Assembly: GCA_023379345.1 (NCBI GenBank) | Contig: JAMCUV010000020.1 | Span: 1 to 33,953, forward strand | Source of the DNA: Thermoplasmatota archaeon | GTDB lineage: Archaea > Thermoplasmatota > Thermoplasmata > Thermoplasmatales > Thermoplasmataceae | Direction: 5' to 3' | DNA: 33,953 bases | Part shown: piece after piece, positions 9,755 through 33,867 of the stretch | How the letters are laid out: the number at the start of each line of letters is the position of its first letter | Numbering within the stretch: position 1 is the first letter of the stretch | The notes under the pieces: model-generated | The model's input: only the letters and a program-made list of their open reading frames with translations | The model's database searches: none | Told to the model about the DNA's origin: nothing | Translations under genes and position numbers: made by a program

Positions 9755-10009
9755 TCAGTACATTGTGAGATTATATTTCCGGTCCATGGCCTGATAATCT
9801 TCCAGTGAAGTTATTCTCAGAAGGTCTGTAAGTGTTTGCATTGCCTTGGCATAACTGTCGTCGTATATCTCCCTGCCAAGGATCAGGCGTTTCTGCACTG
9901 GATCATACATAACCTGTTCACCGTGCTTCTTAAGGCAGTGTATGCATTCCGCCGCAGACTCCTCATTCTCCTCAATGTGGGAAAAGCAATCGTCAAACCT
10001 TGCAGTCAT
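9755..10009 (-). CDS. Unknown small Cys/His-rich protein, last gene of the nuo operon
   Basis: An 84-residue protein, soluble, acidic, without a recognised family. The N-terminal third is rich in possible metal ligands: C8, H11, C22, H24, C25 and H29 (DDCFSH, then ECIHCLKKH), which could bind zinc or iron. The C-terminal half is helical. Its ATG overlaps the stop of the preceding gene (ATGA, 10006-10009), which in turn sits 5 bases after nuoN, so it is cotranscribed with complex I. It may be an assembly or accessory factor; this is inference from position only. Confidence 0.7.
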   Translation of the reverse strand: MTARFDDCFSHIEENEESAAECIHCLKKHGEQVMYDPVQKRLILGREIYDDSYAKAMQTLTDLLRITSLEDYQAMDRKYNLTMY

Positions 10010-10371
10010 AGATCATCGCACCTCTTCATGTCAAATTCAGGAAACCTGACATCGTATCGGTCAATGGCAAGCTCCAGCAGATAGAACAGCGAAGGCAGAT
10101 AACCATGTTCACCTGTCTGCCTTTCGAGAAGGTTTTCAAGGCCATGGATTCCTCCGCTAATTGATTTGAACTGCTCCAGTGTAATCTGGGATCTTAGGAG
10201 GCTGTCAAGAGCTTTCAGAAACTCCAGATACCCCTGCAGTTCCGGTCTGCTTCTCCGCTTCAGGATGATTCCGAGATTCCTTATGCGCCTCTGAATGACC
10301 TTCTCCGCATCTCCGATATCGCCGTATATTATTGCACTCTTGATTATTTCCATATCGCTGTCTATGGACAT
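10006..10371 (-). CDS. Unknown helical protein cotranscribed with complex I genes
   Basis: A 121-residue charged, predominantly helical protein starting MSIDSDMEIIKSAIIYG, without recognised domains, signal peptide or membrane segment. The frame runs further upstream into nuoN, but the ATG at 10371 is preferred: it follows the nuoN stop (TGA, 10377-10379) by 5 bases, and a GGTGATT ribosome binding site overlaps that stop. The protein may be a peripheral partner or assembly factor of the NADH-module-less complex I. Repeated helices with Leu spacing (LGIILKRRSRPELQGYLEFL) suggest a helical bundle. Confidence 0.7.
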   Translation of the reverse strand: MSIDSDMEIIKSAIIYGDIGDAEKVIQRRIRNLGIILKRRSRPELQGYLEFLKALDSLLRSQITLEQFKSISGGIHGLENLLERQTGEHGYLPSLFYLLELAIDRYDVRFPEFDMKRCDDL

Positions 10372-10376
10372 TTCAA

Positions 10377-11825
10377 TCACCCGAATAATCCGTTTGCCAT
10401 GCTTATGAGGGAGGGCCACCAGATGACAACCACTGATAGGGCCACTGTTATGAGTGCGGAAGCGTAAATGGGCACCCTGGCTGAGGTTGACATATCAAAT
10501 GGCTCTCCAGAAATGGGATCCTTACCAAACATATACAGAATTATCCTGAAATAATAGAAAACAGAAATTGCACTGTTCAGTATGGCGATTATGGCCAGCC
10601 ACCAGAGGTTCCCCTCTATGAGTGACAGGAAAAGAAGATACTTGGCAAAGAACCCTCCCGTTATTGGGACCCCTGCCAGTGCAAGGAGCATCACTGCGAA
10701 GCTTACTGCAGTTGCAGGTGATTTCTTGGCCAGGCCCGAAATATCGCTGATCATGACATTATCTTTCTTGACCAGGTTCAGTGTTATGAAAGCCCCTCCC
10801 TTCATGAACACGTAAACGAGAGCATAGAACATTCCTGCCGCAACTGCCACATCAACCACTGCAGAATTTGTGTTTCCCACAAAGCCCACCACTGCAAGCA
10901 CAAGTATGAGGTACCCCGCCTGCGCTATGCTGGAATATGCCAGTAGCCTCTTCAGGTTGTTCTGAGATAGGGCTGCGACGTTGCCGTATGTCATTGTCAG
11001 TATGGAAAGTATGATGAAGAGATATGAAACATCCCTGAAATCTGAGGAGAAACCCACAAGGAATATCTTCAGTATCACCAGGAAAGCCAGGACCTTGCTT
11101 CCAGCAGCAAGATACGCAGAGATGGAGTTCTCTGTGCCATCATAGGCATCAAGTGCCCACTGGTGCATTGGGAATATTGCCAGCTTGAAGCCAAAGCCGA
11201 TTATGAGGAACACTAGTGAAATCAGGAGTTCCGGTGTAGGTGGGGCTGATTTCAGTACCTGAAGATCAAAGGTTCCGGTCTGAAGAAAGAAGAATGAAGC
11301 CCCGAAGAGTATGAATGCCGTTGCGATTGTTCCAGTAAAGAAGTACTTGATTGTGCCCTCCAGGTTACGCCGGGATTTGCCAAAGCTTGCGAGCACATAT
11401 GTCCCAATACTAACCGATTCAAATGCCACGAAAAGCGTGATTATGTTGTAGCTGAATGCGGCAAATATCATGCCAACTGAGACAAAGAGCAGGGTTGCGT
11501 AAAATACCTCACTCTTTGATTTAATTGCCCTTGTTGCCGGATAGGAAATGAGCATTCCGGAAAGCAGCATGACTATGGCGAAGTATATTCCGAAGTCTGA
11601 ATACTGGAAGGTGCCGTAAAAGAGGGATTTTCCCACGGGAGAAAGGAGGAATACCAGGATTGCAGATATTCCCAGAGCTCCAAAGGAGATCCATGAGATT
11701 ATGCGCTTATCGATTCTGAAGGTTCCTAGGGCAAGGATTATGAACCCCACAAGCCCAAGGAATATCTCGGGCGTGAAGGTTACAAGAGCCTGTGCTCCAC
11801 TCAGTGAAATTATTGCAGCTGTCAT
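10377..11825 (-). CDS. nuoN: Complex I subunit N (proton-pumping antiporter-like)
   Basis: A 482-residue membrane protein of the Mrp antiporter-like family with about 14 hydrophobic helices. The helix-5 glutamate is seen in VAFESVSIGTYVLASFG, and the discontinuous-helix region in FKLAIFPMHQWALDAYDGTENSISAYLAAGSKV, with the family's lysine and histidine. It forms one of three proton channels in the membrane arm. The ATG overlaps the nuoM stop by one base (TAATG, 11823-11827), following a purine-rich GGGGGAAT. The next gene starts 5 bases after its stop. Confidence 0.95.
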   Translation of the reverse strand: MTAAIISLSGAQALVTFTPEIFLGLVGFIILALGTFRIDKRIISWISFGALGISAILVFLLSPVGKSLFYGTFQYSDFGIYFAIVMLLSGMLISYPATRAIKSKSEVFYATLLFVSVGMIFAAFSYNIITLFVAFESVSIGTYVLASFGKSRRNLEGTIKYFFTGTIATAFILFGASFFFLQTGTFDLQVLKSAPPTPELLISLVFLIIGFGFKLAIFPMHQWALDAYDGTENSISAYLAAGSKVLAFLVILKIFLVGFSSDFRDVSYLFIILSILTMTYGNVAALSQNNLKRLLAYSSIAQAGYLILVLAVVGFVGNTNSAVVDVAVAAGMFYALVYVFMKGGAFITLNLVKKDNVMISDISGLAKKSPATAVSFAVMLLALAGVPITGGFFAKYLLFLSLIEGNLWWLAIIAILNSAISVFYYFRIILYMFGKDPISGEPFDMSTSARVPIYASALITVALSVVVIWWPSLISMANGLFG

Positions 11826-13306
11826 TAGATTATTCCCCCAACATAGGATACAAGTATGCCATAGATCAGGTTTGGAACTATTCCAAGAATGAATATGGCA
11901 GCGAATGTCCCCATAAGTATGGCAAATCTGGATGGCGTCACGTCGGCGATCTTCCCAAGATTCTCGTTATAAGGCCCGTATAGCGATCTCTGTGCGGCCC
12001 ATATGTGATAAGATGCGGTCACTATCATTCCAAGTATCACCAGTAGTATGAGCCAGCCGATTGCTGCAAAAGACCCCACAAGAATTGAGAACTCACCGAT
12101 AAATCCTGCCAGTCCCGGAAGACCAAGGGATGCCAGTAGCCCGGCAAGAAGGAATGTGCTGAGCATGGGCACCTCACGGTAAATGCCACCGAGTCCGTAG
12201 GTTGTTTCCTTTCCTGTACTCATCTTTATGAAATACAGCGCCGTGAATATCATGGCCATGATGAGCCCATGAGCCACTATCTGGAACATGCCTCCAGCAA
12301 GCTCAAGGCTGGCGGTATATTTTGTGCCTTCCAGGAGGCCGGCGCCGAATGAAAGTGTGACAAAGCCCATTGCCCCTGCGCTGGCGAATGCCATCATGCG
12401 CTTGAGGTTCTTCTGGATCAGTGCTGTGAATGAGAAATAGAGGAGGCTGATGATGCCCAGGGCCACCAGAAGCTGCAGTACACCGGTCCCAAGGGAGCTG
12501 TATATTGGCATAAGTATCCCAAACAGTCCATAACCCCCCATCAGGGATAAGCCCCCCGCAAGTATAACAGTGCCCGGGTATGGAGATGTCTCGTATGTGT
12601 CAGGAAGCCACGAGTGAAGCGGGAAAGACGGCATCTTCACCAGGAATGCGAAGAGGAAGCCGAAGAATGCGAAGTACCTGAGAGCTGTTGGAATCATGTC
12701 AATGTACTTCGACTGCATGAGCGCCCCTATTTCGAAGGTAAATACTCCAGTTGCGTCATAGTGATATGCGTACACTGTGAATATGGCAAGGAGAAGGAAC
12801 ACGGAGCCTATGTGGGTATAAACGAAGAACTTCAGTGAAACATGATCCTTGTTTCTCCCCCCATATTGTGCAACCATGAAGTATACCGGTATAAGCACCA
12901 CCTCCCAGAATATATAGAAAAACAGGAAGTCTCTGGAAATAAGTATTCCATAGAGCCCGACCTCGGTTATCATGATGTATGAATACATTGTCTGGGTGAA
13001 TTCATGCTTGCCGGCTATGAAAGCCGCGATGAATATGACTATTCCTGAAAGAATAAGCAGTGCGTCGGCAAAGCCGCTGACCCCAATGGAGAACGCAATA
13101 CCAATGGAGGGCGCAAGATTGTAAACACTTACTGAACGGAATCCTCCGGCCCCGTAACCCGTGCTGAATCTCAGTATGCTGTATACTATTGTGGCGACGA
13201 GGAATATGGCCGTGGCAATGAGGGCATATTCACGCCTGCGATCCGTAAAAGCGAATGAAACCAGTGAGGCAAGTACCATTATTATGAAAAGTATGAGAAT
13301 GAACAA
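11825..13306 (-). CDS. nuoM: Complex I subunit M (proton-pumping antiporter-like)
   Basis: A 493-residue antiporter-like membrane subunit. Signature segments are FFYIFWEVVLIPVYFMVAQYGG with the conserved glutamate, and FLVKMPSFPLHSWLPDTYETSPYPGTVILAGG with the conserved lysine and histidine. The start is a TTG at 13306 one base after the nuoL stop. Using the first internal ATG at 13279 would remove half of the first membrane helix (FILILFIIMVLASLVSFAF), so TTG is preferred. GGTTGATG just upstream could act as the ribosome binding site. Confidence 0.95.
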   Translation of the reverse strand: MFILILFIIMVLASLVSFAFTDRRREYALIATAIFLVATIVYSILRFSTGYGAGGFRSVSVYNLAPSIGIAFSIGVSGFADALLILSGIVIFIAAFIAGKHEFTQTMYSYIMITEVGLYGILISRDFLFFYIFWEVVLIPVYFMVAQYGGRNKDHVSLKFFVYTHIGSVFLLLAIFTVYAYHYDATGVFTFEIGALMQSKYIDMIPTALRYFAFFGFLFAFLVKMPSFPLHSWLPDTYETSPYPGTVILAGGLSLMGGYGLFGILMPIYSSLGTGVLQLLVALGIISLLYFSFTALIQKNLKRMMAFASAGAMGFVTLSFGAGLLEGTKYTASLELAGGMFQIVAHGLIMAMIFTALYFIKMSTGKETTYGLGGIYREVPMLSTFLLAGLLASLGLPGLAGFIGEFSILVGSFAAIGWLILLVILGMIVTASYHIWAAQRSLYGPYNENLGKIADVTPSRFAILMGTFAAIFILGIVPNLIYGILVSYVGGII

Positions 13307-13307
13307 G

Positions 13308-15245
13308 TTACATCAACCCCGCCAGGAGCATTATGATAAAAACAATGGAAATGCCTATTATGAGGACAACAAAGTAGTTCTCCACCACTCCGTCCTGCAG
13401 TTTCCTGAAGAATGACCCAAGACTCAGTGTTCCTGATCCTGTCTTGTCCACCGCGTTGTTGTACGCATTCTCAAATGAGGCGATACCGCCGGATACTGGC
13501 GCTATGACTCTCTCGGCAATTATATTTGTGAACAGTGTGTCTAGGTAGAACTTGTTCTTCGCCAGCCTGTAAAGCCTGTTCTTGTTGAAATCCATATGCC
13601 TCCACCTGTCTGTGCCGTAAAGAACATATGTAACAATGAGGCCGATGGCGAGGAGCGTGATGGGTATGGCTTCAATGTAAATGGGAACTGACGGAACAAA
13701 GGCTTCCGGAGTGATGAATTTATAGAAAGGAGTCTGTATGAGACCGAGTAAAAGCGCCCCTGCAGCCAGGATAAACAGCGGGATCAGTGCCCAGACAGAG
13801 GGATCCTTGGCATGCTCAGCCAGATGTGACCTGGGCTTTCCGAGGGAGACCCGGAAGAACATCCTGAAAGTGTAAAGTGTGGTTAGAAGCGTGCCGGTAG
13901 CAAGGAATATCCATGGAATAAAGCTCCAGGCAGTGCCATAATGCGTATAGTAGAGCCAGGAAGCTGAAATTATTGAATCCTTGGAGAAGTAGCCAGCAGT
14001 TCCGGGAAATGCGATTAATGCCAGTGACCCTATGAAGAGAAGAGTGACTGTCATGGGCATTTTTCTCCACAATCCGCCCATTTCCCTTGTGTCCCTGAGG
14101 TCCATAAGGGCTATGAGTATGGCACCGGCTGCCATGAACAGAAGTGCCTTGAACACTGCATGGACAACCAGATGGAACATTCCCAGCGGTACGGCAGCAT
14201 AACCGAACAGGCCGCCAAGGCCTATGGCTGCAAACATGTAACCTATCTGGCTTATTGTTGAATATGCCAGGATGCGTTTTATGTCATTTACAAATATTCC
14301 GATTATTCCAGCAAAAACCGCAGTAAAGGCTCCAAGTATGACCACTGAATAGAGTGCGAATGGTGCAGCTGCGTAAAATATGTTGAAGACCCTGGCGACA
14401 AGATAGACCCCGGCAGTAACCATTGTAGCTGCATGGATAAGGGCGGAAACCGTAGTTGGACCTTCCATTGCATCCGGTATCCATACGTGAAGTGGGAACT
14501 GTGCAGATTTACCTGCCGCTCCTGCCAGAAACAATACTGCAACAATACCCAAGGTGTTCTTTCCTATATAGGAAGCAATAAGACTGGCGTTATTGATGAG
14601 GAATGGTATGCTGAGCGGGCTGTTGCTGCCAAGACCTGGAAAACCAACCAGGGAATCGTAAAGGATTGCCATGCCTACAAGGAATAGCAGGTCACCAACT
14701 CTTGTCACTATGAATGCCTTCTTGGCAGCAGCTGTGGCATTTGGCTTGAAGAACCAGAAGCCTATAAGAAGGTATGAACACAGTCCCACCAGTTCCCAGA
14801 ACAGGAAGAATACAACCAGGTTCGAAGCCACCACAAGACCAAGCATTCCCGCCGTGAACAGGGAAGTTTCAGCAAAATACACATGCTTGTTTGGATCGTT
14901 CTTCATGTAATACAACGCAAAGAGATGTATCATCAATGACACAAATGACACCATCAGTGCCATCATTATGGACAGCCTGTCAATGAATATGCCAATATCA
15001 ATGTTGAAGAACCACAGGTAATGGTTATATGCATACTGCCCAGTTATGACATAAAGTTTTGAGCTGTTTGACACAACCGTTCCGGCATCGACATAGAAAA
15101 ATGTTATGATGGAGGCAACCAGTGCTCCGCCAACAGCAAGAGATGCTATGATTCCTGCCAGCGATTTATAACGCTTCCCAACTGCGAGAGCTATTGGGGC
15201 ACCAATGAGAGGACTTAGAAATATGAACCAACCAGGCCAATACAT
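13308..15245 (-). CDS. nuoL: Complex I subunit L (distal proton-pumping subunit)
   Basis: A 645-residue subunit, the largest of the membrane arm. The antiporter core is marked by LFWELVGLCSYLLIGFWF and GKSAQFPLHVWIPDAMEGPTTVSALIHAATMV, almost identical to bacterial NuoL. After the core there is a polar region (residues about 455-480), more hydrophobic helices, a stretch (about 555-610, NKNRLYRLAKNKFYLDTLFTNII) fitting the start of the lateral amphipathic helix, and a final membrane helix. The ATG at 15245 follows the nuoK stop by one base. Confidence 0.96.
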   Translation of the reverse strand: MYWPGWFIFLSPLIGAPIALAVGKRYKSLAGIIASLAVGGALVASIITFFYVDAGTVVSNSSKLYVITGQYAYNHYLWFFNIDIGIFIDRLSIMMALMVSFVSLMIHLFALYYMKNDPNKHVYFAETSLFTAGMLGLVVASNLVVFFLFWELVGLCSYLLIGFWFFKPNATAAAKKAFIVTRVGDLLFLVGMAILYDSLVGFPGLGSNSPLSIPFLINNASLIASYIGKNTLGIVAVLFLAGAAGKSAQFPLHVWIPDAMEGPTTVSALIHAATMVTAGVYLVARVFNIFYAAAPFALYSVVILGAFTAVFAGIIGIFVNDIKRILAYSTISQIGYMFAAIGLGGLFGYAAVPLGMFHLVVHAVFKALLFMAAGAILIALMDLRDTREMGGLWRKMPMTVTLLFIGSLALIAFPGTAGYFSKDSIISASWLYYTHYGTAWSFIPWIFLATGTLLTTLYTFRMFFRVSLGKPRSHLAEHAKDPSVWALIPLFILAAGALLLGLIQTPFYKFITPEAFVPSVPIYIEAIPITLLAIGLIVTYVLYGTDRWRHMDFNKNRLYRLAKNKFYLDTLFTNIIAERVIAPVSGGIASFENAYNNAVDKTGSGTLSLGSFFRKLQDGVVENYFVVLIIGISIVFIIMLLAGLM

Positions 15246-15246
15246 G

Positions 15247-15546
15247 TTACCACTTTATCTCCTTCAGCAGGGAAATGGCAATCCTGCCGACCTTTTTATA
15301 TGTGGCTGTGAGCAGACTGAGGCCCACAACTGATTCCACTGCGCCTATGGCGATGCCAAACAGCGCCATTATGAGTGGATCAACTGATCCGTAGGCTATT
15401 GCTACGGCAACGAGATTTAGAATTGCAGAGTTGATGATTATTTCAAGAGAGATCAGCATCTTAATGCCGATGTTGGACGTCATTACCCCATAGAGACCAA
15501 TTACAAAGAGGATCAGGGAAAGCATGCTCACAAGAAGTATCTGCAT
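15247..15546 (-). CDS. nuoK: Complex I subunit K
   Basis: A 99-residue membrane protein with three helices. Acidic residues within the helices (LISLEIIINSAILNL and GAVESVVGLSLL) match the two conserved glutamates of NuoK that belong to the proton path. The ATG overlaps the preceding stop by one base (TAATG), and a GGGAGGG ribosome binding site lies at 15554-15560, seven bases upstream. Confidence 0.95.
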   Translation of the reverse strand: MQILLVSMLSLILFVIGLYGVMTSNIGIKMLISLEIIINSAILNLVAVAIAYGSVDPLIMALFGIAIGAVESVVGLSLLTATYKKVGRIAISLLKEIKW

Positions 15547-15764
15547 TAATCTTCCCTCCCTGCTATATAGAACATGCCTATGATTCCGGCCACCAGAATG
15601 AGCGAAAGCAGTTCAAACGGTATGAGGTATTTTCCGAACAGAGTGGTTCCGATCTGGGCAATGTTCTGTGAAGACGGGGTGAAATTATACCGTATCCTTG
15701 CCACTTCAATTCCGAATACAACCAGGAACAGGGCAGCCGCAACTGCTGATAATTTGTTATTCAA
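15546..15764 (-). CDS. nuoJ2: Complex I subunit J, C-terminal half as a separate protein
   Basis: A 72-residue protein with two membrane helices, corresponding to helices 4-5 of bacterial NuoJ (LSAVAAALFLVVFGIEV and FELLSLILVAGIIGMFYIAG); the second contains the conserved PFELLSLILLAAxIGA-like motif. The start is a TTG at 15764 inside the end of nuoJ1 in another frame, with a strong GGAGGT site at 15772-15777, seven bases before it. The ribosome binding site argues for a real separate start, not a sequencing frameshift. Split NuoJ is known from other archaea. Confidence 0.9.
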   Translation of the reverse strand: MNNKLSAVAAALFLVVFGIEVARIRYNFTPSSQNIAQIGTTLFGKYLIPFELLSLILVAGIIGMFYIAGRED

Positions 15765-16005
15765 GTTCCTTACCTCCGCTGAGCATCAGGGTAAACACAA
15801 GCAGTGTTACTACTGCGCCCACAAAGACCAAAAGCTCAACTGCCCCTATTATTGATCCACCCAGGAATATGAAGAGTGCAGAGAGCATTACCAAGAAGAC
15901 CATCAGATAAACCGCAGAATGCGTAAGGTTCTTTTCTGCAACGGTCTTGAGCGCAAGAGGTATCAGTATAATGGCGAACAGTATGAGAACAATGGTATAG
16001 ATCAC
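15757..16005 (-). CDS. nuoJ1: Complex I subunit J, N-terminal half as a separate protein
   Basis: An 82-residue protein with three membrane helices, corresponding to helices 1-3 of NuoJ. SAVYLMVFLVMLSALFIFLGGSIIGAVELLVFVGAVVTLLVF contains the conserved glycine-rich helix 3 (pi-bulge region) with its glutamate. The start is a GTG at 16005 that overlaps the nuoI stop (GTGA, 16002-16005), with GAGGTGAT just upstream. Its last 8 bases overlap nuoJ2 in another frame. Confidence 0.9.
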   Translation of the reverse strand: MIYTIVLILFAIILIPLALKTVAEKNLTHSAVYLMVFLVMLSALFIFLGGSIIGAVELLVFVGAVVTLLVFTLMLSGGKELE

Positions 16006-16436
16006 TTTATCACCTCGTCCTCAGGCAGTGAGAGCTCTTCTGGGGAATACGTGAAGCTGTTCCTTGTCCTGGCGAGCTCGAACGTGTGCGTAAGGTAAAT
16101 GGCATCGGTAGGACAGATCTCCTCACAGTTGCGGCATATTGTGCAAGTTCCGAAGTTAACATCCGGATAGATATGCCTCTTGTTTCTTGGATTATCACGG
16201 TTCACTTTCTGCATTGTTATGCTCTTGTTGGGGCAGACCTGTTCGCAGAGGGTGCATCCCACGCAGTCATCCAGGCTCAGGAATATTCTGAACCTGAACC
16301 TGTCAGGATAATCGGGTTTCTCTTCAGGATACTGAACTGTTACCGGTTTCTGTAAAACGTGCTTTCCCACAGATACTACTGCCTTTATAGTGCCTATCAG
16401 CGGTATTTCCTTCTTAGGTTCCTTAACTTCTATCAT
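16002..16436 (-). CDS. nuoI: Complex I subunit I (two [4Fe-4S] clusters)
   Basis: A 144-residue ferredoxin-like subunit carrying electrons to the terminal cluster in NuoB. Two C-x2-C-x2-C-x3-C motifs are complete: C58, C61, C64, C68 and C98, C101, C104, C108. An amphipathic N-terminal region (residues 10-32) would anchor it at the membrane. Because NuoEFG are absent, this subunit is a likely docking point for a soluble donor such as ferredoxin. The start overlaps the nuoH stop (ATGA). Confidence 0.95.
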   Translation of the reverse strand: MIEVKEPKKEIPLIGTIKAVVSVGKHVLQKPVTVQYPEEKPDYPDRFRFRIFLSLDDCVGCTLCEQVCPNKSITMQKVNRDNPRNKRHIYPDVNFGTCTICRNCEEICPTDAIYLTHTFELARTRNSFTYSPEELSLPEDEVIK

Positions 16437-17473
16437 AGCGACAACCCCAGAGTTAATATTCCTGCAATTACCAGATTAATTATGGCTGCCGGCAGGAGAT
16501 ACTTCCATCCCATATTGACAAACCTGTCTATCCTTATCCTTGGAACTGACAGCCAGATTGTGAATGACAGTATGACCAGTATCATTGCCTTTATGAAGAG
16601 ATAAACGAAGCCTGCATCTCCTGAAAATGGGCCATTGTAAGCACCTAGATAAAGGAGGGACACTATCATTGAACCCAGGAAGATGCTTCCGAACATTCCC
16701 ATGTAGAACATTCCGAACCTCATGCCGGAATACTCGATGGAGTGGCCTGAGACAAGCTCACTGTCACTCTCGCTCATATCAAATGGAGAATATGCAGCCC
16801 TTGCGATCATTGCGATGAAGAAAACACCAAGCCCGATCACTTGCGGTATGCCATATGGAATGGACTGAACGGAAATGAGGTTCACCATGTTGAGAGGCTG
16901 GTTAGTCCTAGCTGATGCCATCATGACAAGGGCAAGCACAGATATCATCATTGGAACTTCAAAGGAGATATCCTTGGCAACTCCTCTCAGGGCCCCAAGT
17001 ACAGCGTACTTGTTCTTTGAGCTCACACCTGCCAGAACTTCTCCAACAGGCATAATGGCAAGTGCCGCGAAGAGAAGCAGGAGGGAAACATTGGAATGTG
17101 TGATTGTCAGTGACCCGATATAATAGAAATCCCCATATGGAATGATGGCAAAAGCCATTATGAGACCAAGGAAAACAACTATTGGTGCAATTTTGTAAGG
17201 CAGGTCATCACGCCTGCTTGGAAGGATGCTTTCCTTTCCAACGAGCTTCAAGGCATCAGCTATGAGCTGCAGTGTACCGGCCTTTCCCACCCTGTTGGGG
17301 CCTATTCTCAGCTGCACACGGGCCATGTATTTACGGAAGAGGTATATCATGACTATGAGCATGATCACTACGAAAATCAGCATGAACAAAGTTTCGAAGA
17401 AATAAGCCAGAATATAAGCAGGGTAATGTCCCAGTATTGCGAAGAATGCAGCCAATCTTTCCAGTACGCTCAT
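16433..17473 (-). CDS. nuoH: Complex I subunit H (quinone-chamber membrane subunit)
   Basis: A 346-residue membrane subunit with about eight helices that forms the quinone chamber with NuoB and NuoD. The signature RKYMARVQLRIGPNRVG is at 47-63, followed by GEVLAGVSSKNKYAVLGALRG and SPFDMSESDSELVSGHSIEYSGMRF. The glutamate normally just before RK in this signature (ERK in most NuoH/ND1) is phenylalanine here, F46, read as YLFRKYMA. The loop PEAESELV is altered to SESDSELV. The ATG overlaps the nuoD stop (ATGA, 17470-17473). Confidence 0.95.
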   Translation of the reverse strand: MSVLERLAAFFAILGHYPAYILAYFFETLFMLIFVVIMLIVMIYLFRKYMARVQLRIGPNRVGKAGTLQLIADALKLVGKESILPSRRDDLPYKIAPIVVFLGLIMAFAIIPYGDFYYIGSLTITHSNVSLLLLFAALAIMPVGEVLAGVSSKNKYAVLGALRGVAKDISFEVPMMISVLALVMMASARTNQPLNMVNLISVQSIPYGIPQVIGLGVFFIAMIARAAYSPFDMSESDSELVSGHSIEYSGMRFGMFYMGMFGSIFLGSMIVSLLYLGAYNGPFSGDAGFVYLFIKAMILVILSFTIWLSVPRIRIDRFVNMGWKYLLPAAIINLVIAGILTLGLSL

Positions 17474-18603
17474 CTGTCCACCTCGCCGAACACGAGGTCT
17501 GTGGTGCCGGATATTGAGAAAAGGTCAGCTATCATGACATCCTTGGCCAGATACGGCAGCACACTCAGGTTCCTCATGGCGGGGCTCCTCACGTGGACCC
17601 TGTAGGGTTTTACACTTCCATCTGCTACAATGTAGACGCCAAATTCACCCTTGGAGGACTCCGTTCTTGCATATGCTTCCCCCTCTCCCCTTAGCCTTAT
17701 CATCAGGGATTTCTTTGCCTTGGGATTGAAATACGGGCCATCGGGTATCTTCTTTATAGCCTGTTTTATTATTCTTATGGATTGCCGCATTTCCTCAAAC
17801 CTTACAAGGAATCTGGCAAGATTGTCTTTCTTGAATGATACGGGAATGTCAAAATTCAGCTTATCGTAAACCAGGTATGGCTCAGCCTTCCTTACGTCGT
17901 ATTCCACTCCCGAGGCCCTGAGCATTGGTCCCGTTACCCCATATTCTATGGCAACTTCCGGCTCAAGTATGCCCACCCCCTTGTTTCTCGATATGAATAT
18001 GTCGTTCTTCACAAATGTGTTGAAAATCTCCTCAAGTTTCTTGGGAAATTCTTCAGTGAATTGGTCTATGTCGTAGATAATCTGATCATCAATATCCTGG
18101 TAAACTCCACCGATGCTCATGTAGTTTGTCTGCTGCCTTGAACCGCTCACTGCAGTGAAAATCCTCAGTATCTTTTCCCTTTCAATGAAGCAATAGAAGA
18201 AAGGCGTAAGCATACCCAGGTCAAGGCCAAACGCTCCTGCCCATACCAAGTGGGCTGCAATCCTGTTGAGTTCCGCCATTATTACTCTTATCCACTGCGC
18301 CCTCTCAGGTGGCGGTATCCCCAGAACTTTCTCAGCAGCTTCTAGATAGCCAAGCTCCATATTCATGGCGCCAACATAGTCCATTCTGTCGAAGTAAATG
18401 AGCGAATCACAGTAATAATCCATTTCACAGAGTTTTTCGGCATTTCTGTGGAGATATCCAATAATTGGCTCAACCTCCTTGACTGTTTCACCATCAAGCT
18501 TTACCCTGAGCCTTAGTACGCCATGGGTGGATGGGTGCTGTGGACCTATATTGAGTTCAACCCACTCCTTGGATTGATCTATCTTCTCGCCCTCAACAAC
18601 CAT
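17470..18603 (-). CDS. nuoD: Complex I subunit D (49-kDa, quinone-binding)
   Basis: A 377-residue subunit, related to the large subunit of NiFe hydrogenases, without the nickel-binding cysteines. The quinone-site histidine is in GPQHPSTHG (H23/H27), and Y76 in FDRMDYVGAMNM is the conserved quinone-binding tyrosine. The frame extends to a TTG at 18609, but the ATG at 18603 is preferred because it overlaps the nuoC stop by one base (TAATG). It is separate from nuoC, unlike the fused NuoCD of some bacteria. Confidence 0.95.
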   Translation of the reverse strand: MVVEGEKIDQSKEWVELNIGPQHPSTHGVLRLRVKLDGETVKEVEPIIGYLHRNAEKLCEMDYYCDSLIYFDRMDYVGAMNMELGYLEAAEKVLGIPPPERAQWIRVIMAELNRIAAHLVWAGAFGLDLGMLTPFFYCFIEREKILRIFTAVSGSRQQTNYMSIGGVYQDIDDQIIYDIDQFTEEFPKKLEEIFNTFVKNDIFISRNKGVGILEPEVAIEYGVTGPMLRASGVEYDVRKAEPYLVYDKLNFDIPVSFKKDNLARFLVRFEEMRQSIRIIKQAIKKIPDGPYFNPKAKKSLMIRLRGEGEAYARTESSKGEFGVYIVADGSVKPYRVHVRSPAMRNLSVLPYLAKDVMIADLFSISGTTDLVFGEVDR

Positions 18604-19064
18604 TACCAACCATCTCCGGGATCGAAGGTTGCGTAATCGTTCCCATCCTCATCCATGTTTATATATTGAACCTTAGACAGATCGTAGTTCTTCCTGAGCG
18701 GGTGACCAACCCAGGATTCTGGCAGGAACAGGCGCTTAAGATTTGGATGACCTTCGAAGACTATGCCCAGCATGTCGTACTGTTCACGCTCCTCCCAGTT
18801 GGCTGCGGCATACAGGGATGAAATGCTTGGCATCCTTTCGTCCATAGTCTCAGTTCTAACCACTATGTACTCATTTTTCTTCATGTTGTGCAAGTGATAA
18901 ACGACTTCCAGCCTGTCTTTTCGGTCAATGCCGGTAATCAGGGATAGATGGTCGTAGCCCTTGCTCTTCAGGTCCTTTATCAGTTCAACAAGATTTTCCT
19001 TGGCTACCTTGAGGTTTCTCCTTCCATCCTTTCCCTTGGTCTCCTCAATAATTTCAACCAACAA
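18603..19064 (-). CDS. nuoC: Complex I subunit C (30-kDa)
   Basis: A 153-residue subunit of the peripheral arm. The family signature is in NWEEREQYDMLGIVFEGHPNLKRLFLPESWVGHPLRKNY (about residues 94-132). The start is one of two consecutive TTG codons, at 19064 or 19061; the GAGGTGAT ribosome binding site overlaps the nuoB stop and sits 2 or 5 bases from them, so 19061 may be the functional one. Confidence 0.94.
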   Translation of the reverse strand: MLVEIIEETKGKDGRRNLKVAKENLVELIKDLKSKGYDHLSLITGIDRKDRLEVVYHLHNMKKNEYIVVRTETMDERMPSISSLYAAANWEEREQYDMLGIVFEGHPNLKRLFLPESWVGHPLRKNYDLSKVQYINMDEDGNDYATFDPGDGW

Positions 19065-19067
19065 TCA

Positions 19068-19541
19068 TCACCTCTCCGCTTCGTTCCGTATCTTTTTCTG
19101 AAGCAGCATTATTCCGTAGGTCAGCGCTTCAGGGGTCGGTGGGCATCCGGGAACATATACGTCAACAGGAACTACCCTGTCAACACCAAGGACAACAGAA
19201 TATCCAAGATGATATGGCCCTCCCTGGATGACGCAGACACCCATTGCTATGACGTACTTGGGGTAAGGCATCTCATCATAAATTCTCCTCAGCCTGGGAG
19301 CCATCTTTTTCGTAACAGTTCCTGACACTATCATCAAATCAGACTGCCTGGGTGAGTTCCTGAAAATTTCACTCCCAAACCTGGAAATATCCAGATTGGA
19401 AGCCTGTATTGCCATCATCTCAATGGCGCAGCATGCCAGTCCAAAGGTCAAGGGCCAGAGCGAGTTGCTTCTTGCCCATTCCATGGCCTGATCAACTGTT
19501 GTTGTAAGTGCACCGCCTTCTCCACTCTTCACTTCTGCCAC
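19068..19541 (-). CDS. nuoB: Complex I subunit B (terminal [4Fe-4S] cluster N2)
   Basis: A 157-residue subunit that carries cluster N2 and passes electrons to quinone. The ligands are the adjacent pair C37-C38, C103 and C133 (VPGCPPTPE). The usual loop GxCxxSGGxY appears as [10 protein letters not shown]. The start is a GTG at 19541, which overlaps the end of nuoA by 13 bases in another frame. It is the first redox subunit of an operon that has no NuoEFG. Confidence 0.95.
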
Positions 19542-19987
19542 CTCATATATCCTTCCTTGAAAGCATAGTAAACCACAAAAAGTGGCATTGCAAGGAACAG
19601 GATTGTCTCAAGGAACGGGACTATCCCAAGTGCCTTGAAATCAAATGCCCACGGGAAAAGAAGTACCATATCCACATCAAAAAGTATGAAAAGAAGCATT
19701 ATAACGTAATACTGGACCGTAACAAATTTCCCTATCTCTCCCCGGGCAACCTCACCAGTTTCATACGGCTCAAGGTATGACCCATCCTTGGCGGGAGGTG
19801 AACGTTCAAGAACCAGATTCTGAACAATATCATCCGGTTTCATGCTAAACTTTTTATTTGGCCTGTACCGGCTTTCCCCAAGTGTGGGAAGAAGCATAAA
19901 CAGCCCGATCATCCCGAGAACCATTAGAACCAGGGTGATTAGCAATGGGATGTATCCGTCCAACATCCAGTGAGTATCGTTAGACAT
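19529..19987 (-). CDS. nuoA: Complex I subunit A
   Basis: A 152-residue three-helix membrane subunit, longer than the usual 120 because of an extended loop after helix 1 (residues about 38-80). The loop motif YETG (75-78) corresponds to the YECG of other members, with threonine in place of the cysteine. [16 protein letters not shown] carries the membrane-embedded acids D104 and D106. This is the first gene of the nuo operon. It starts 75 bases after gatE, an A/T-rich gap with TATA-like ATTTAAAATATT at 20045-20056, so it probably has its own promoter and a short leader. Confidence 0.93.
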
Positions 19988-30500: not shown

Positions 30501-30964
30501 ACCTTGTTCTGAAATTTGCCCCACTTGACCTCAACTTCTCCTTGAAACCTCTGGACATAAACATCAGCTCCATGCCTTTCATAACAATAACCAGGTATTT
30601 CCCGCTGTTCTTCTTCATGGGAGTTGTCACCTGGTCAGGCTACAGCGGAAAGATCTTCTCTGAATATCAGCTCTACGTTTCCCAGAATGCAGGCTTCTTC
30701 AATCCAAGGGTTATCACCTTCACATCACCATCAAGCACATCCACCGTGATCTCCGGCATATATCCCGGGCACACTTACTACGCAACAATAGTGCTGAGGC
30801 TCTCCGATGGGGAGGTCTATCAGTCTTCGGTGGTTAAGATAACTTACTCAAATCCCGTATATCTGGGAATGAACATTGCCATAGTGGGAGGCATTGCAAT
30901 CTATCTGGCTTTCATGGGCGCATATTTAAGGAGGAGATGGAAAAAGACGCCTGTTTATCCCTAA
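27551..30964 (+). CDS. Secreted, membrane-anchored S53 (sedolisin) peptidase with long C-terminal extension
   Basis: A 1137-residue acid endopeptidase. Residues 1-32 are a signal peptide. About 32-150 is a pro-region, shorter than the usual 180. The S53 domain (about 150-490) has E215 and D219 (WALETATDVEW), oxyanion D300 (ATGDSGSD) and serine S410 (GGTSIATP), with near-standard spacing. The calcium loop is altered: the usual aspartates are Q453 (FEQI) and N469 (GWNPVTG). After it come beta-rich regions, an immunoglobulin-like repeat (about 720-780), a carboxypeptidase-regulatory-like domain (about 925-1000), a fibronectin-III-like segment and a membrane helix (about 1103-1125) with RRRWKK. 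Many N-x-S/T sequons suggest a glycosylated surface protein that digests peptides at low pH. The ATG at 27551 is preferred to the TTG at 27542. Confidence 0.92.
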   Translation: MPFNKFYAILAVLLMAAPMAALIPMWQPYSAHSNIEAGIIHSGENVTQSNEQYYIAYFPGTYSGMITTELGLLGVSYASSGGFMNIYPNEAQLAYVSNILKIASKDFGIQYALINGTVTSTPYDVVSQVTPDLVIPYAFVPSQIASAYNFTWEYRSGYTGSGITIGIVDAYGDPNLAYDLKAFDELNGLPPANLSVAYPEGQPGNGTYNASWALETATDVEWAHAMAPNATILLYIAPSAITQTLQFAVSDMVDSSSVNIISLSWGNPEIQLTQREIGVYSQIYREAYLKGITVVAATGDSGSDYYGANGTGIPTVNFPSSDPYVTAVGGTSLSLFDGKYSQTAWGGLYEGQSFGSGGGYSRFFSTPYWQSAPGFNSTERGTPDVSLDANQYTGMIVVVRGKQYEAGGTSIATPIWAAAAAIMDQATHRNLGFLNPLLYQISRTPLYNSSFEQIRTGTNGAYSAAPGWNPVTGLGTPSVSGLVNATEKITAGFGGQVLLQGNATYASSVYSVLNLSVNTSNMKSNGSGFYYVGLYNSPANYIEFGVNVSASAANYMMRIGQSGYVRTFYGPQISGSWGPLHYISNLSLTYKNGWISATSNSSREISVPAPVFLNYAGNSTPVAGGVSIGSYDNLTDLGNFTFSSLTGVYNGTQLNSSGMYFQRFSGIDIPGYSSLNAAINGTEVEFSRYIKSSPPAISYGPPAPLISYMLNFSLPVHGSFHLSNYTGSVEWKVNGTSIAGNTYSFPATGYYNITASEYVDRSRVNETRIIYIPDMVIQNVSVHSDVSHDLNPPSSIVVDYFSRYAVRNTSAIPVVSGTNDFAVSSTGFRTESLSNKSSGNLTIELHALPVPVSAFLFQGNATVTIQNVTVAGENGTFSGTTMPGVVWINATAPGFIPLNLSTIIMPGTSYRTQILLQPESSSMVLIQGTVNDAVYAFPVAGAVVSVSNQSYSYTNSTGYYRLYEGSGTLNISASANLYESQYKHLVLKFAPLDLNFSLKPLDINISSMPFITITRYFPLFFFMGVVTWSGYSGKIFSEYQLYVSQNAGFFNPRVITFTSPSSTSTVISGIYPGHTYYATIVLRLSDGEVYQSSVVKITYSNPVYLGMNIAIVGGIAIYLAFMGAYLRRRWKKTPVYP

Positions 30965-30979
30965 TGCGTCTCTTTTTCC
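30939..30979. terminator. Bidirectional hairpin with both stop codons in its loop
   Basis: GGAAAAAGACGC (30939-30950) pairs with GCGTCTCTTTTTCC (30966-30979) over 12 base pairs with a 2-base bulge. The 15-base loop holds the stop of the protease (TAA, 30962-30964) and of porB (TAG, 30961-30963). Each strand gets a T5 run at the far end of the hairpin, inside the opposing gene. This resembles a two-way terminator; function is inferred. Confidence 0.55.
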
Positions 30980-31842
30980 AGAAGGCCCTCCCATCTTCTG
31001 TCAACTTCTTCCTGCAAAATACTGATTTCATCCTCGTCCATATGCGAAAATCTCTTCTGGGACTGGACATATTCCTTGACAGAAACAGGCTTGCTGGGTC
31101 TGGTGAGCCTGAACGTGCCCATTGAGTACTCATACAGCGGGAACATCCTTGACTGCACAGCCATCCGCGACACCTCGATGGTTTTCTCGGGAGGGTAGTA
31201 CCAGCCTGTGGGGCATGGCGCGAGGATCTGGATGAACTTCGGGCCGTTGGTCTTCTTGGCATTCTGCACCTTCCGGATGAGGTCTTCAGGATATGCTATG
31301 GTGGCTGTTGCCACATATGGAACTCCCTGGGCCATCATTATATCCGCCACAACCTTCTTCTGCTGCTTCTTGAAATTTCTATCCAGACCAACTGGAGTGG
31401 TTGTGGTTTCAGCACCGTAGGGCGTGCTTCCGGATCTCTGGACACCTGTGTTCATGTAGCCCTCATTGTCGTACATGATGTAGAACACGTTGTGTCCCCG
31501 TTCCATGGCTCCCGATAGTGACTGGAGACCTATGTCTGCTGTCCCTCCGTCACCGGCAAACCCAACAACGTTGTAATCGCTGTCGCCCCTTATATCCAGT
31601 GCCTCTCTCAGACCACTTATTGAAGCGCCTGTGGCTGCAAATGGAGTGTAAACCATTGGTATGTCCAGTGTCCTGTTTGGCATGGCACCGGGAATCACCG
31701 CCCAGCATGAGGCAGGCACTGAGACCACGGTCTTCTTGCCAAGCGCCTTCAGAACATATCTCATTGCCAGTGTTGCACCGCATCCCTGGCAGGCTGTGTG
31801 CCCAGGTTCCATAAGTTCCTGTTCGGGAATGGATGTGGGCAT
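30961..31842 (-). CDS. porB: 2-oxoacid:ferredoxin oxidoreductase, beta subunit (pyruvate type)
   Basis: The thiamine-diphosphate subunit, 293 residues from the ATG at 31842. Numbering from the GTG at 31845, the [4Fe-4S] ligands are C19, C22, C47 and C211, with the same C-x2-C-x24-C spacing as pyruvate:ferredoxin oxidoreductase. The thiamine site is GDGGTADIG with DNEGYMNTGVQRSGSTPYGA. The start is either GTG at 31845 or ATG at 31842; the ATG is preferred because GGTGATC (31847-31853), a perfect archaeal ribosome binding site, lies 4 bases before it. It overlaps the porA stop. The complex converts pyruvate, CoA and oxidised ferredoxin to acetyl-CoA, CO2 and reduced ferredoxin. Confidence 0.94.
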   Translation of the reverse strand: MPTSIPEQELMEPGHTACQGCGATLAMRYVLKALGKKTVVSVPASCWAVIPGAMPNRTLDIPMVYTPFAATGASISGLREALDIRGDSDYNVVGFAGDGGTADIGLQSLSGAMERGHNVFYIMYDNEGYMNTGVQRSGSTPYGAETTTTPVGLDRNFKKQQKKVVADIMMAQGVPYVATATIAYPEDLIRKVQNAKKTNGPKFIQILAPCPTGWYYPPEKTIEVSRMAVQSRMFPLYEYSMGTFRLTRPSKPVSVKEYVQSQKRFSHMDEDEISILQEEVDRRWEGLLEKETH

Positions 31843-33029
31843 CACTGATCACCCCTTGTGTTTATGAAAACAGTACCTTCCTTCCCTGCCGCCATCATGT
31901 CTATCATCCCCTCTATGTCATCCTCCTTCACATCACGGCCCCCAATGCCGGCAACGAACCCTGTTACGGGTATGTCTGATCTGCCGTAAAGTGCTGCCTT
32001 GATCTCATTGAACATGGTCCCTCCGGATCCAAATGACACTGATCTGTCGATCACGCCTATGTGGGCAGCATCCTTTGTGGCACGCACAATATCCTCGGCA
32101 GGGAATGGCCTGAAATACCTTATCCTGATTATTCCCACCTTCCTGCCATCGGCCCTCATCTTCCCTGCAACATATTTAGCGGTTGATGCAACTGTCCCTG
32201 ATGCTACAAGTAAGTACTCCGCACCGTCAGTCATGTATTCCTCAATCAATCCTCCGTAGTCACGGCCGAAGATCTCGGAGAATTCCCCTGTCACCTTCTT
32301 GATGGTGTTGGCAGATTGCCACATGCTCTCCATCATATCCTTTTTCAGTTCCATGAAGGGACCGTCAGGTGTGGAATATGATCCGTAGCCCATGGGGCGA
32401 TCCGAATCAACCTTGAAATCCAGGTGGAATTCGGGAAGGAATTCGTCAACAAGCTCCTGGTCCGGTATCACAACCTGCTCCGAAGTGTGCGACAGTATGA
32501 AGGCGTCCTCCATGCTCATGAAGGGGAGCATCACACCTGAATCCTCTGCAATCCGGTAACCCATTATGAGCGTGTCCATGGCCTCCTGATTTGATTCACT
32601 GTAGACCTGAATCCATCCAGTGTCCTTCTGGTTCATGCTGTCGGACTGGTCGGACCATATATTCCATGGGGGGCCAATGGCCCTGTTGACCACGCTCATG
32701 ACAATTGGAAGGCGCTGGCCCGCAACCCAGTGCAGCATCTCATGCATGTAGAGAAGACCCTGTGAGCTTGTTGCAGTGTAAGACCTCACGCCGGCAATTT
32801 CACTTGCAAATACAGCGGCCATTGCACTGTGTTCACTTTCCACCTCAACATACCTGGCGCTGATCTCCCTGTTTGCCACCATTTCCGCCAGTTTTTCCAC
32901 AATTGTGGTCTGCGGTGTGATGGGGTATGCTGAGATGAAGCCCACCTTTGACAGGCGAACGCCCTCTGCAACAGCCTCATTGCCGGTCATTATTGATGTC
33001 TTTGATCCTATTTCCCTCATTCCAGTCAT
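31842..33029 (-). CDS. porA: 2-oxoacid:ferredoxin oxidoreductase, alpha subunit (pyruvate type)
   Basis: A 395-residue subunit with the pyrimidine-binding part of the active site. Family segments are GNEAVAEGVRLSKVGFISAYPITPQTTIVEKL, RYVEVESEHSAMAAVFASEIAGVRSYTATSSQGLLYMHEMLHW and the C-terminal GIIRIRYFRPFPAEDIV. The threonine of YPITPQT and the conserved region around ESEH are present. Two ATGs (33029 and 33020) are possible; 33029 overlaps the porD stop (ATGA) with GAGGAGG immediately upstream. Pyruvate is the likely substrate but other 2-oxoacids cannot be excluded. Confidence 0.94.
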   Translation of the reverse strand: MTGMREIGSKTSIMTGNEAVAEGVRLSKVGFISAYPITPQTTIVEKLAEMVANREISARYVEVESEHSAMAAVFASEIAGVRSYTATSSQGLLYMHEMLHWVAGQRLPIVMSVVNRAIGPPWNIWSDQSDSMNQKDTGWIQVYSESNQEAMDTLIMGYRIAEDSGVMLPFMSMEDAFILSHTSEQVVIPDQELVDEFLPEFHLDFKVDSDRPMGYGSYSTPDGPFMELKKDMMESMWQSANTIKKVTGEFSEIFGRDYGGLIEEYMTDGAEYLLVASGTVASTAKYVAGKMRADGRKVGIIRIRYFRPFPAEDIVRATKDAAHIGVIDRSVSFGSGGTMFNEIKAALYGRSDIPVTGFVAGIGGRDVKEDDIEGMIDMMAAGKEGTVFINTRGDQ

Positions 33030-33325
33030 TCCTCCTCAAAATTCATTTCTATACATTTCTCCGGGCACTCATTTGCGCATATTCCGCATCCCTTGCAGTA
33101 ATCGTAGTCTATGACCGGAATGCTGAAGGCAATAACCTTCTGGTTGGGTGCCGGAGTCTTGCGCCCATCCTCAAGATTTATTGCATTGTCGGGGCAGAAT
33201 TTCCAGCATATCTCGCACCTTATGCAGCTTGAATAGTCAATTACGGGCTTCAGTGTCCTCCACAGGCCCGTATGGTTTGCCCTCGAACTGGTCTCCGCCA
33301 GTGGTACAAGCACCAACTCTACCAC
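33026..33325 (-). CDS. porD: 2-oxoacid:ferredoxin oxidoreductase, delta subunit (ferredoxin-like)
   Basis: A 99-residue protein with two [4Fe-4S] motifs: C34, C37, C40, C44 and C77, C80, C83, C87. It passes electrons from the beta-subunit cluster to free ferredoxin. The start is a GTG at 33325, overlapping the porG stop by 7 bases in another frame, with GGATGGG directly upstream; no ATG in frame is available before the first cysteine motif. Confidence 0.94.
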   Translation of the reverse strand: MVELVLVPLAETSSRANHTGLWRTLKPVIDYSSCIRCEICWKFCPDNAINLEDGRKTPAPNQKVIAFSIPVIDYDYCKGCGICANECPEKCIEMNFEEE

Positions 33326-33867
33326 CCCATCCTTACGGAACTGTATGCTTTCTCGGCTGCGCTGACATTCACATCAGCCTTGGACGGAGACATTTCTGAT
33401 ATTGCTTCACGAATCTGGGTCATGTCCACAACCCCTGTGCTCTTTGAGAAGGCACCAAGCATCGCGGTGTTGATTATGGGGTTTGTTCTGTTGCCCAGTC
33501 CGAGATCGGTGGCAATCCTGGTTGCATCCACTGTTGCCACATGGTAAGGAAGGCCGAGATCTTCGGGAGCTTCAGGTGAATTGAGTATGAGCGACGACCC
33601 GGGCTTCATCCCTGCAGTCACATCGACGGTCTCCATCACCTTGCTGTCCAGCACCACAACGACATCAGGATTGTAAACCTGCGTCTTCAGCAGTATGGGC
33701 GTGGTGTCAATCCGCGTGAACGCTGTAACGGGTGCCCCCCTTCGCTCCGTCCCGAAGAATGGAAATGATATTACATACTCACCGGACATGAAGGATGCCA
33801 GAGCTAGCATCTTTGAAGCCGTTACTGCACCCTGTCCCCCTCTTCCGTGAAACCTGACTTCCAGCAT
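33319..33867 (-). CDS. porG: 2-oxoacid:ferredoxin oxidoreductase, gamma subunit
   Basis: A 182-residue subunit beginning MLEVRFHGRGGQGAVTASKMLA, the signature of the gamma domain, with SFPFFGTERRGAPVTAFTRI further on. It leads the operon porG-porD-porA-porB, in which every gene overlaps the next by 1-7 bases. A TTATTATATTG element about 26-36 bases before the ATG is the likely TATA box. Confidence 0.94.
   Translation of the reverse strand: MLEVRFHGRGGQGAVTASKMLALASFMSGEYVISFPFFGTERRGAPVTAFTRIDTTPILLKTQVYNPDVVVVLDSKVMETVDVTAGMKPGSSLILNSPEAPEDLGLPYHVATVDATRIATDLGLGNRTNPIINTAMLGAFSKSTGVVDMTQIREAISEMSPSKADVNVSAAEKAYSSVRMGW

Follow-up and report, generated by a model that had tools for sequence, protein, structure and literature searches.

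The fpo operon of methanogens, which codes for the F420H2 dehydrogenase, includes the gene for FpoO. In the cyanobacterial NDH-1MS complex, the soluble CupA/CupS proteins lie at NdhF3, beside NdhD3 and facing the cytoplasm (PMC6981117); the distal modules of this system are NdhF3-NdhD3-CupA-CupS and NdhF4-NdhD4-CupB. The nuo cluster of Campylobacterota lacks nuoEF and contains two extra genes, NuoX and NuoY, which take the place of nuoEF and are associated with the use of flavodoxin or ferredoxin (PMC6682613). The complex I of Thermoplasmatales has no NADH-oxidising module, and which donor supplies its electrons is left open in PMC5155288 and also in PMC3750248.

The window, defined as the whole stretch of 33,953 nucleotides analysed here, comes from a metagenome-assembled genome that belongs to the order Thermoplasmatales and is 66% complete, in 115 contigs. 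It contains the cluster nuoA-B-C-D-H-I-J-K-L-M-N on the minus strand, running from 19987 to 10377, and two small genes, hereinafter designated A and B, behind it (Table 1). Coordinates and letters agree with the preliminary description, in which A is a helical protein of 121 residues starting 5 nt after nuoN from a ribosome site over the nuoN stop, and B is an 84-residue protein overlapping A by 4 nt and having six Cys/His within its first 29 positions. Specifically, five nucleotides lie between the nuoN stop and the A start, and GGTGAT within TTCGGGTGATTGAAATG, overlapping the nuoN stop, is the A ribosome site. The start of B lies at 10009 and the stop of A ends at 10006, sharing the 4-nt overlap ATGA, while the B ribosome site GAGGTG is located in the final codons of A. 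In B, the six Cys/His residues are C8, H11, C22, H24, C25 and H29.

Table 1. Features of the nuoN-A-B region in the window
Feature	Coordinates	Strand	Remarks
Protein A	10009..10371 (coding 10371..10009, stop 10008-10006)	-	121 aa; ATG at 10371
Protein B	9755..10009 with stop (9758-10009 without)	-	84 aa; ATG at 10009
nuoN	10377..11825	-	TGA stop at 10379-10377
nuoM	11825..13306	-	together with nuoL, linked to A in genus g14
nuoL	13308..15245	-	with nuoM, partner of A in genus g14
Remaining nuo operon, nuoA-B-C-D-H-I-J-K	15246..19987	-	nuoE/F/G missing
A ribosome binding site, GGGTGAT over nuoN stop codon	10372..10383	-	short gaps alike in relatives
B ribosome site in KRC codons of A and ATGA stop/start overlap, AAGAGGTG	10006..10026	-	

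A and B are real, conserved genes. Of the 77 genomes of the family, 72 contain A by single-sequence search, covering all 19 genera, and 73 by profile search; profiles also detect both proteins in two further families of the order, f3 and f4. Synonymous change predominates within genera for both genes, with dN/dS of about 0.04–0.17 for most A pairs and 0.01–0.06 for most B pairs, the exception being one very close pair (0.36 for A, 0.23 for B). Outside genus g14, which is probably Picrophilus, the order nuoN-A-B with short gaps or overlaps is kept at 90 of 90 loci in 89 genomes, a set that includes one locus where a stretch of N separates nuoN from A. At these loci A overlaps nuoN or starts at most 12 nt after it, and B overlaps A or starts at most 21 nt after it, the overlap being exactly 4 nt at 71 of the loci. 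An apparent nuoN-A fusion (G069) was rejected as the product of the run of N in the assembly. The genes downstream of B vary (crotonase and tatCA, hemB, others), and the conserved unit is therefore nuo-A-B. The refuting case named in the preliminary description, the two genes commonly lying far from nuo genes, was not seen; in g14, too, they adjoin nuo genes. From the gene overlaps and ribosome sites we infer that A and B are translationally coupled to the nuo genes.

The two genes occur where a close complex I occurs. In a class sample of 400 genomes, 224 pass a strict NuoD cut-off of E ≤ 1e-80. Among them, A and B are both present in 79 of the 81 genomes of f1, f3 and f4, which have a close NuoD, and in none of the 143 other class genomes, whose NuoD/FpoD is more distant (40–46% identity in the rows listed). 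The two exceptions (G033 and G045) have contigs that end just after nuoN or within nuoL. True loss of A was rejected for both, and likewise for two contig-end cases from the family-wide set (G036 and G076), because all four contigs stop before A. In f2 of the same order, a profile search finds neither A nor B apart from three weak A matches (E 3e-5 to 1e-3) inside frames of 266–267 aa, which were taken as chance. The NuoD-like proteins of f2 have at most 39% identity and are taken to be hydrogenase-type large subunits. The occurrence of A and B is thus restricted to complex I, and in the Thermoplasmatales, which are heat- and acid-loving archaea, the two are always encoded together with it.

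The contrast between 79 of 81 and 0 of 143 identifies A and B as an order-specific addition to complex I. As 143 genomes have NuoD/FpoD and neither gene, A and B are no general feature of complex I lacking NuoEFG and are not generally required by complex I in the class. No small genes equivalent to A/B were noticed after nuoN in other class families, among loci extending past nuoN; in several of these loci a gene for a prenyl (GGPP-type) synthase-like protein and one for an FAD-dependent reductase-like protein follow nuoN.

Genus g14 has a split operon. It comprises two species, G055 (99% complete) and G056, one of them with a fragmentary genome; the genome is 1.5 Mb and the G+C content of the loci read is about 32–38%. 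One contig of G055 carries nuoA-B-C-D-H-I and the J/K region followed directly by nuoN and then B, with nuoL, nuoM and A missing there, and G056 has the same nuoN-B junction. The genes nuoL and nuoM are instead found away from the core operon in two separate cassettes, each arranged nuoL-nuoM-A, with A 9 or −4 nt from nuoM. The cassettes have diverged from each other (L075 and L085 on G055 contigs C1 and C3; L088 and L081 in G056). Because nuoN lies between nuoM and A elsewhere, simple breakage cannot yield nuoL-M-A plus nuoN-B; copying followed by complementary loss can produce this arrangement. The A and NuoM trees agree on the g14 copies, placing C3 outside a group of C1 and the genera g5 and g2, with a support of only 83 at the C1/C3 fork of the A tree. 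The NuoL tree, slightly unlike these two, groups both g14 copies.

The two nuoL-nuoM-A cassettes link A to the distal NuoL/M pair and not to electron entry. The split is one evolutionary event, and linkage to nuo genes falls short of proving contact. A further idea is that A and B have nothing to do with complex I and are simply carried along in a conserved operon. Both are unknown families, as this idea would allow, but both are still tied to nuo genes after the operon was split, and their co-occurrence follows the close NuoD (79/81) and not the distant type (0/143). We therefore regard such a passive association as very improbable.

The AlphaFold2 model of A is a helical bundle (pLDDT 84, pTM 0.77), consistent with the helical protein of the preliminary description. 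The best conserved stretch of A in the alignment is its C-terminal tail, RY(N/D)xxxPxxxxKRxxD, also written RY..(F/Y)P..D.KRC.D, which remains disordered when A is modelled by itself (pLDDT below about 50). Conservation of an unfolded tail is a common sign of a docking segment, and we infer this role for the tail of A. Part of the codon conservation in the tail is accounted for by the B ribosome site. The C3-type A copies of g14, which have no B behind them, retain KR with AAG CGT in place of AGG; thus, the tail of the A protein is itself under constraint. B is modelled as a small alpha-beta domain, helix-helix-hairpin-helix-helix (AlphaFold2, pLDDT 90, pTM 0.76). A Foldseek search of PDB folds gives no significant match for either protein (best E 1.4 for A, 2.8 for B), and Pfam, NCBIfam and PDB sequence searches reveal no family that A or B consistently matches. 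Specifically, neither matches profiles of NuoE/F/G or FpoF (Complex1_51K, FrhB_FdhB_C and others). Literature searches of open-licence papers yielded no description of A or B, and a search with Thermoplasma acidophilum locus tags yielded only unrelated Theileria papers.

The Cys/His residues of B are not a conserved set. In the alignment of f1, only H24 of the six is invariant; B of genera g4 (probably Cuniculiplasma) and g6 has no Cys in the N-terminal region, the His invariant in f1 is replaced in f3, and B of f4, which is 69 aa long, has neither Cys nor His anywhere. The order-wide invariant positions are instead R41 and E47 in the core and N80, T82 and Y84, three residues of the C-terminal NLTMY motif, whose pattern is N(L/I)T(M/D/I)Y. 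Because the Cys/His were lost in several genera and in f4, B has no family-wide metal centre or Fe-S cluster, and its assignment as a Zn-finger, ferredoxin, Fe-S or other metal protein was rejected.

These data separate the two roles, electron-input adaptor or assembly factors, that the preliminary description had offered. Neighbourhood and co-occurrence favour an assembly or accessory role. An adaptor, by which one or both proteins take electrons or dock a donor in place of NuoEFG, as with NuoX/NuoY, would suit a nuo operon that has no NuoEFG and no established natural donor (PMC5155288); NuoXY show that such replacement genes exist (PMC6682613), an FpoF-type protein (PF04432) is found in 0 of 77 genomes, and in g14 it is B that has remained beside the core genes. 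We nonetheless consider this role improbable. B lacks conserved metal ligands and A has no conserved Cys/His fit for a cofactor, A is tied to the distal NuoL/M pair in g14, and other class genomes with NuoD/FpoD carry neither gene. It is possible that B is a cofactor-free docking protein for a donor. Overall, A and B look like extra parts of the membrane arm or assembly helpers, and not like a metal-bearing electron inlet.

On the combined sequence evidence, we favour, with reasonable but limited confidence, the reading that A and B are soluble proteins without cofactors that serve specifically the NuoEFG-less complex I of this order, most likely as small peripheral membrane-arm subunits or dedicated assembly factors. 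Translational coupling would ensure that both are made in step with complex I. The most likely docking site of A would be the distal antiporter-like pair NuoL/NuoM, on its cytoplasmic face; for B, whose C-terminal tail is strongly conserved, it would be NuoN or another part of the core. Either a permanent place in the finished complex or a role in assembly would be in line with this proposal. A narrower alternative, that A and B are solely assembly factors or chaperones for the insertion or maturation of NuoL/M/N and stay outside the finished enzyme, is in our view possible but less likely. Both are small, soluble and co-translated with the last membrane subunits, the complex I of other lineages does without them, and proteins needed for assembly only would give an identical genomic pattern. 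However, the strict coupling and the presence of one A per nuoL-nuoM copy in g14 suggest a stoichiometric need, and searches of Pfam and NCBIfam reveal no likeness to known complex I assembly factors.

NDH-1MS is the system nearest in kind, the place of A on the enzyme being putative. There, an exchangeable NuoL/NuoM-type pair at the far end of complex I is accompanied by a soluble and largely helical subunit that faces the cytoplasm (PMC6981117), and in g14 there are two alternative nuoL-nuoM pairs, each with its own A gene. The linkage to a NuoL/NuoM-type gene pair that characterises CupA/CupS is seen for A only in g14; elsewhere A follows nuoN. CupA is a 50-kDa protein with a Zn site for CO2 hydration, whereas A has 121 residues, and A has no profile match, no Foldseek match below E=1.4 and no conserved His/Cys. 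A is thus not a CupA, differing in size, sequence, fold and metal site. A and B resemble NuoX/NuoY in forming a pair of additional genes in a nuo cluster without nuoEF. They do not take the place of nuoE/nuoF, however, but follow nuoN at 90 of 90 loci and nuoM or nuoN in g14, and they are further set apart by having no conserved ligands and by the association of A with nuoL-nuoM in g14. FpoO is similar in being small, lineage-specific and encoded in a complex I-type operon of archaea; A and B differ in matching no Pfam or NCBIfam family and in the absence of an FpoF-type protein here.

Two so far unnamed proteins thereby join the parts list of Thermoplasmatales complex I in at least three families, putatively including Thermoplasma acidophilum, and the g14 split assigns each protein to a part of the enzyme in a testable way. 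The split also hints that distal modules of an archaeal complex I can be swapped. Tentatively, A might mark a distal NuoL/NuoM module that is exchangeable and corresponds, in archaea, to the NdhF/NdhD/Cup modules of cyanobacteria. If so, g14 could fit alternative NuoL-NuoM-A ends onto one NuoA-K/N-B core, for example as a means of altering or gating proton pumping against a very steep pH gradient.

The absence of NuoEFG noted in the preliminary description holds for the nuo operon but not for the whole genome. A 487-aa protein matching NuoF (PF01512), with a likely NuoE-like N-terminus, is encoded on another contig (G000:C113, L163:6561-8024), directly followed by an 889-aa formate dehydrogenase-like protein (L163:8012-10681); the pair is probably an NAD-dependent formate dehydrogenase. 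PF01512 proteins are present in 27 of the 77 family genomes, contrary to the statement that NuoEF is absent from every Thermoplasmatales genome (PMC5155288). The FpoF/FrhB C-terminal family was rejected as an alternative electron inlet, being absent in all 77. Reduced ferredoxin is a plausible donor of the NuoEFG-less complex. Genes of the 2-oxoacid:ferredoxin oxidoreductase type are located at 30961-33867 of the window, about 11 kb upstream of the nuo operon.

A second copy of A, 94% identical, is found in the same genome on a 7-kb contig with the same neighbours (G000:C10, L089). Its stretch nuoN-A-B-crotonase-tatCA-prx-hemB has neighbours 93–99% identical to the version in the window, and the copy is probably a strain variant in an assembled genome of mixed strains.
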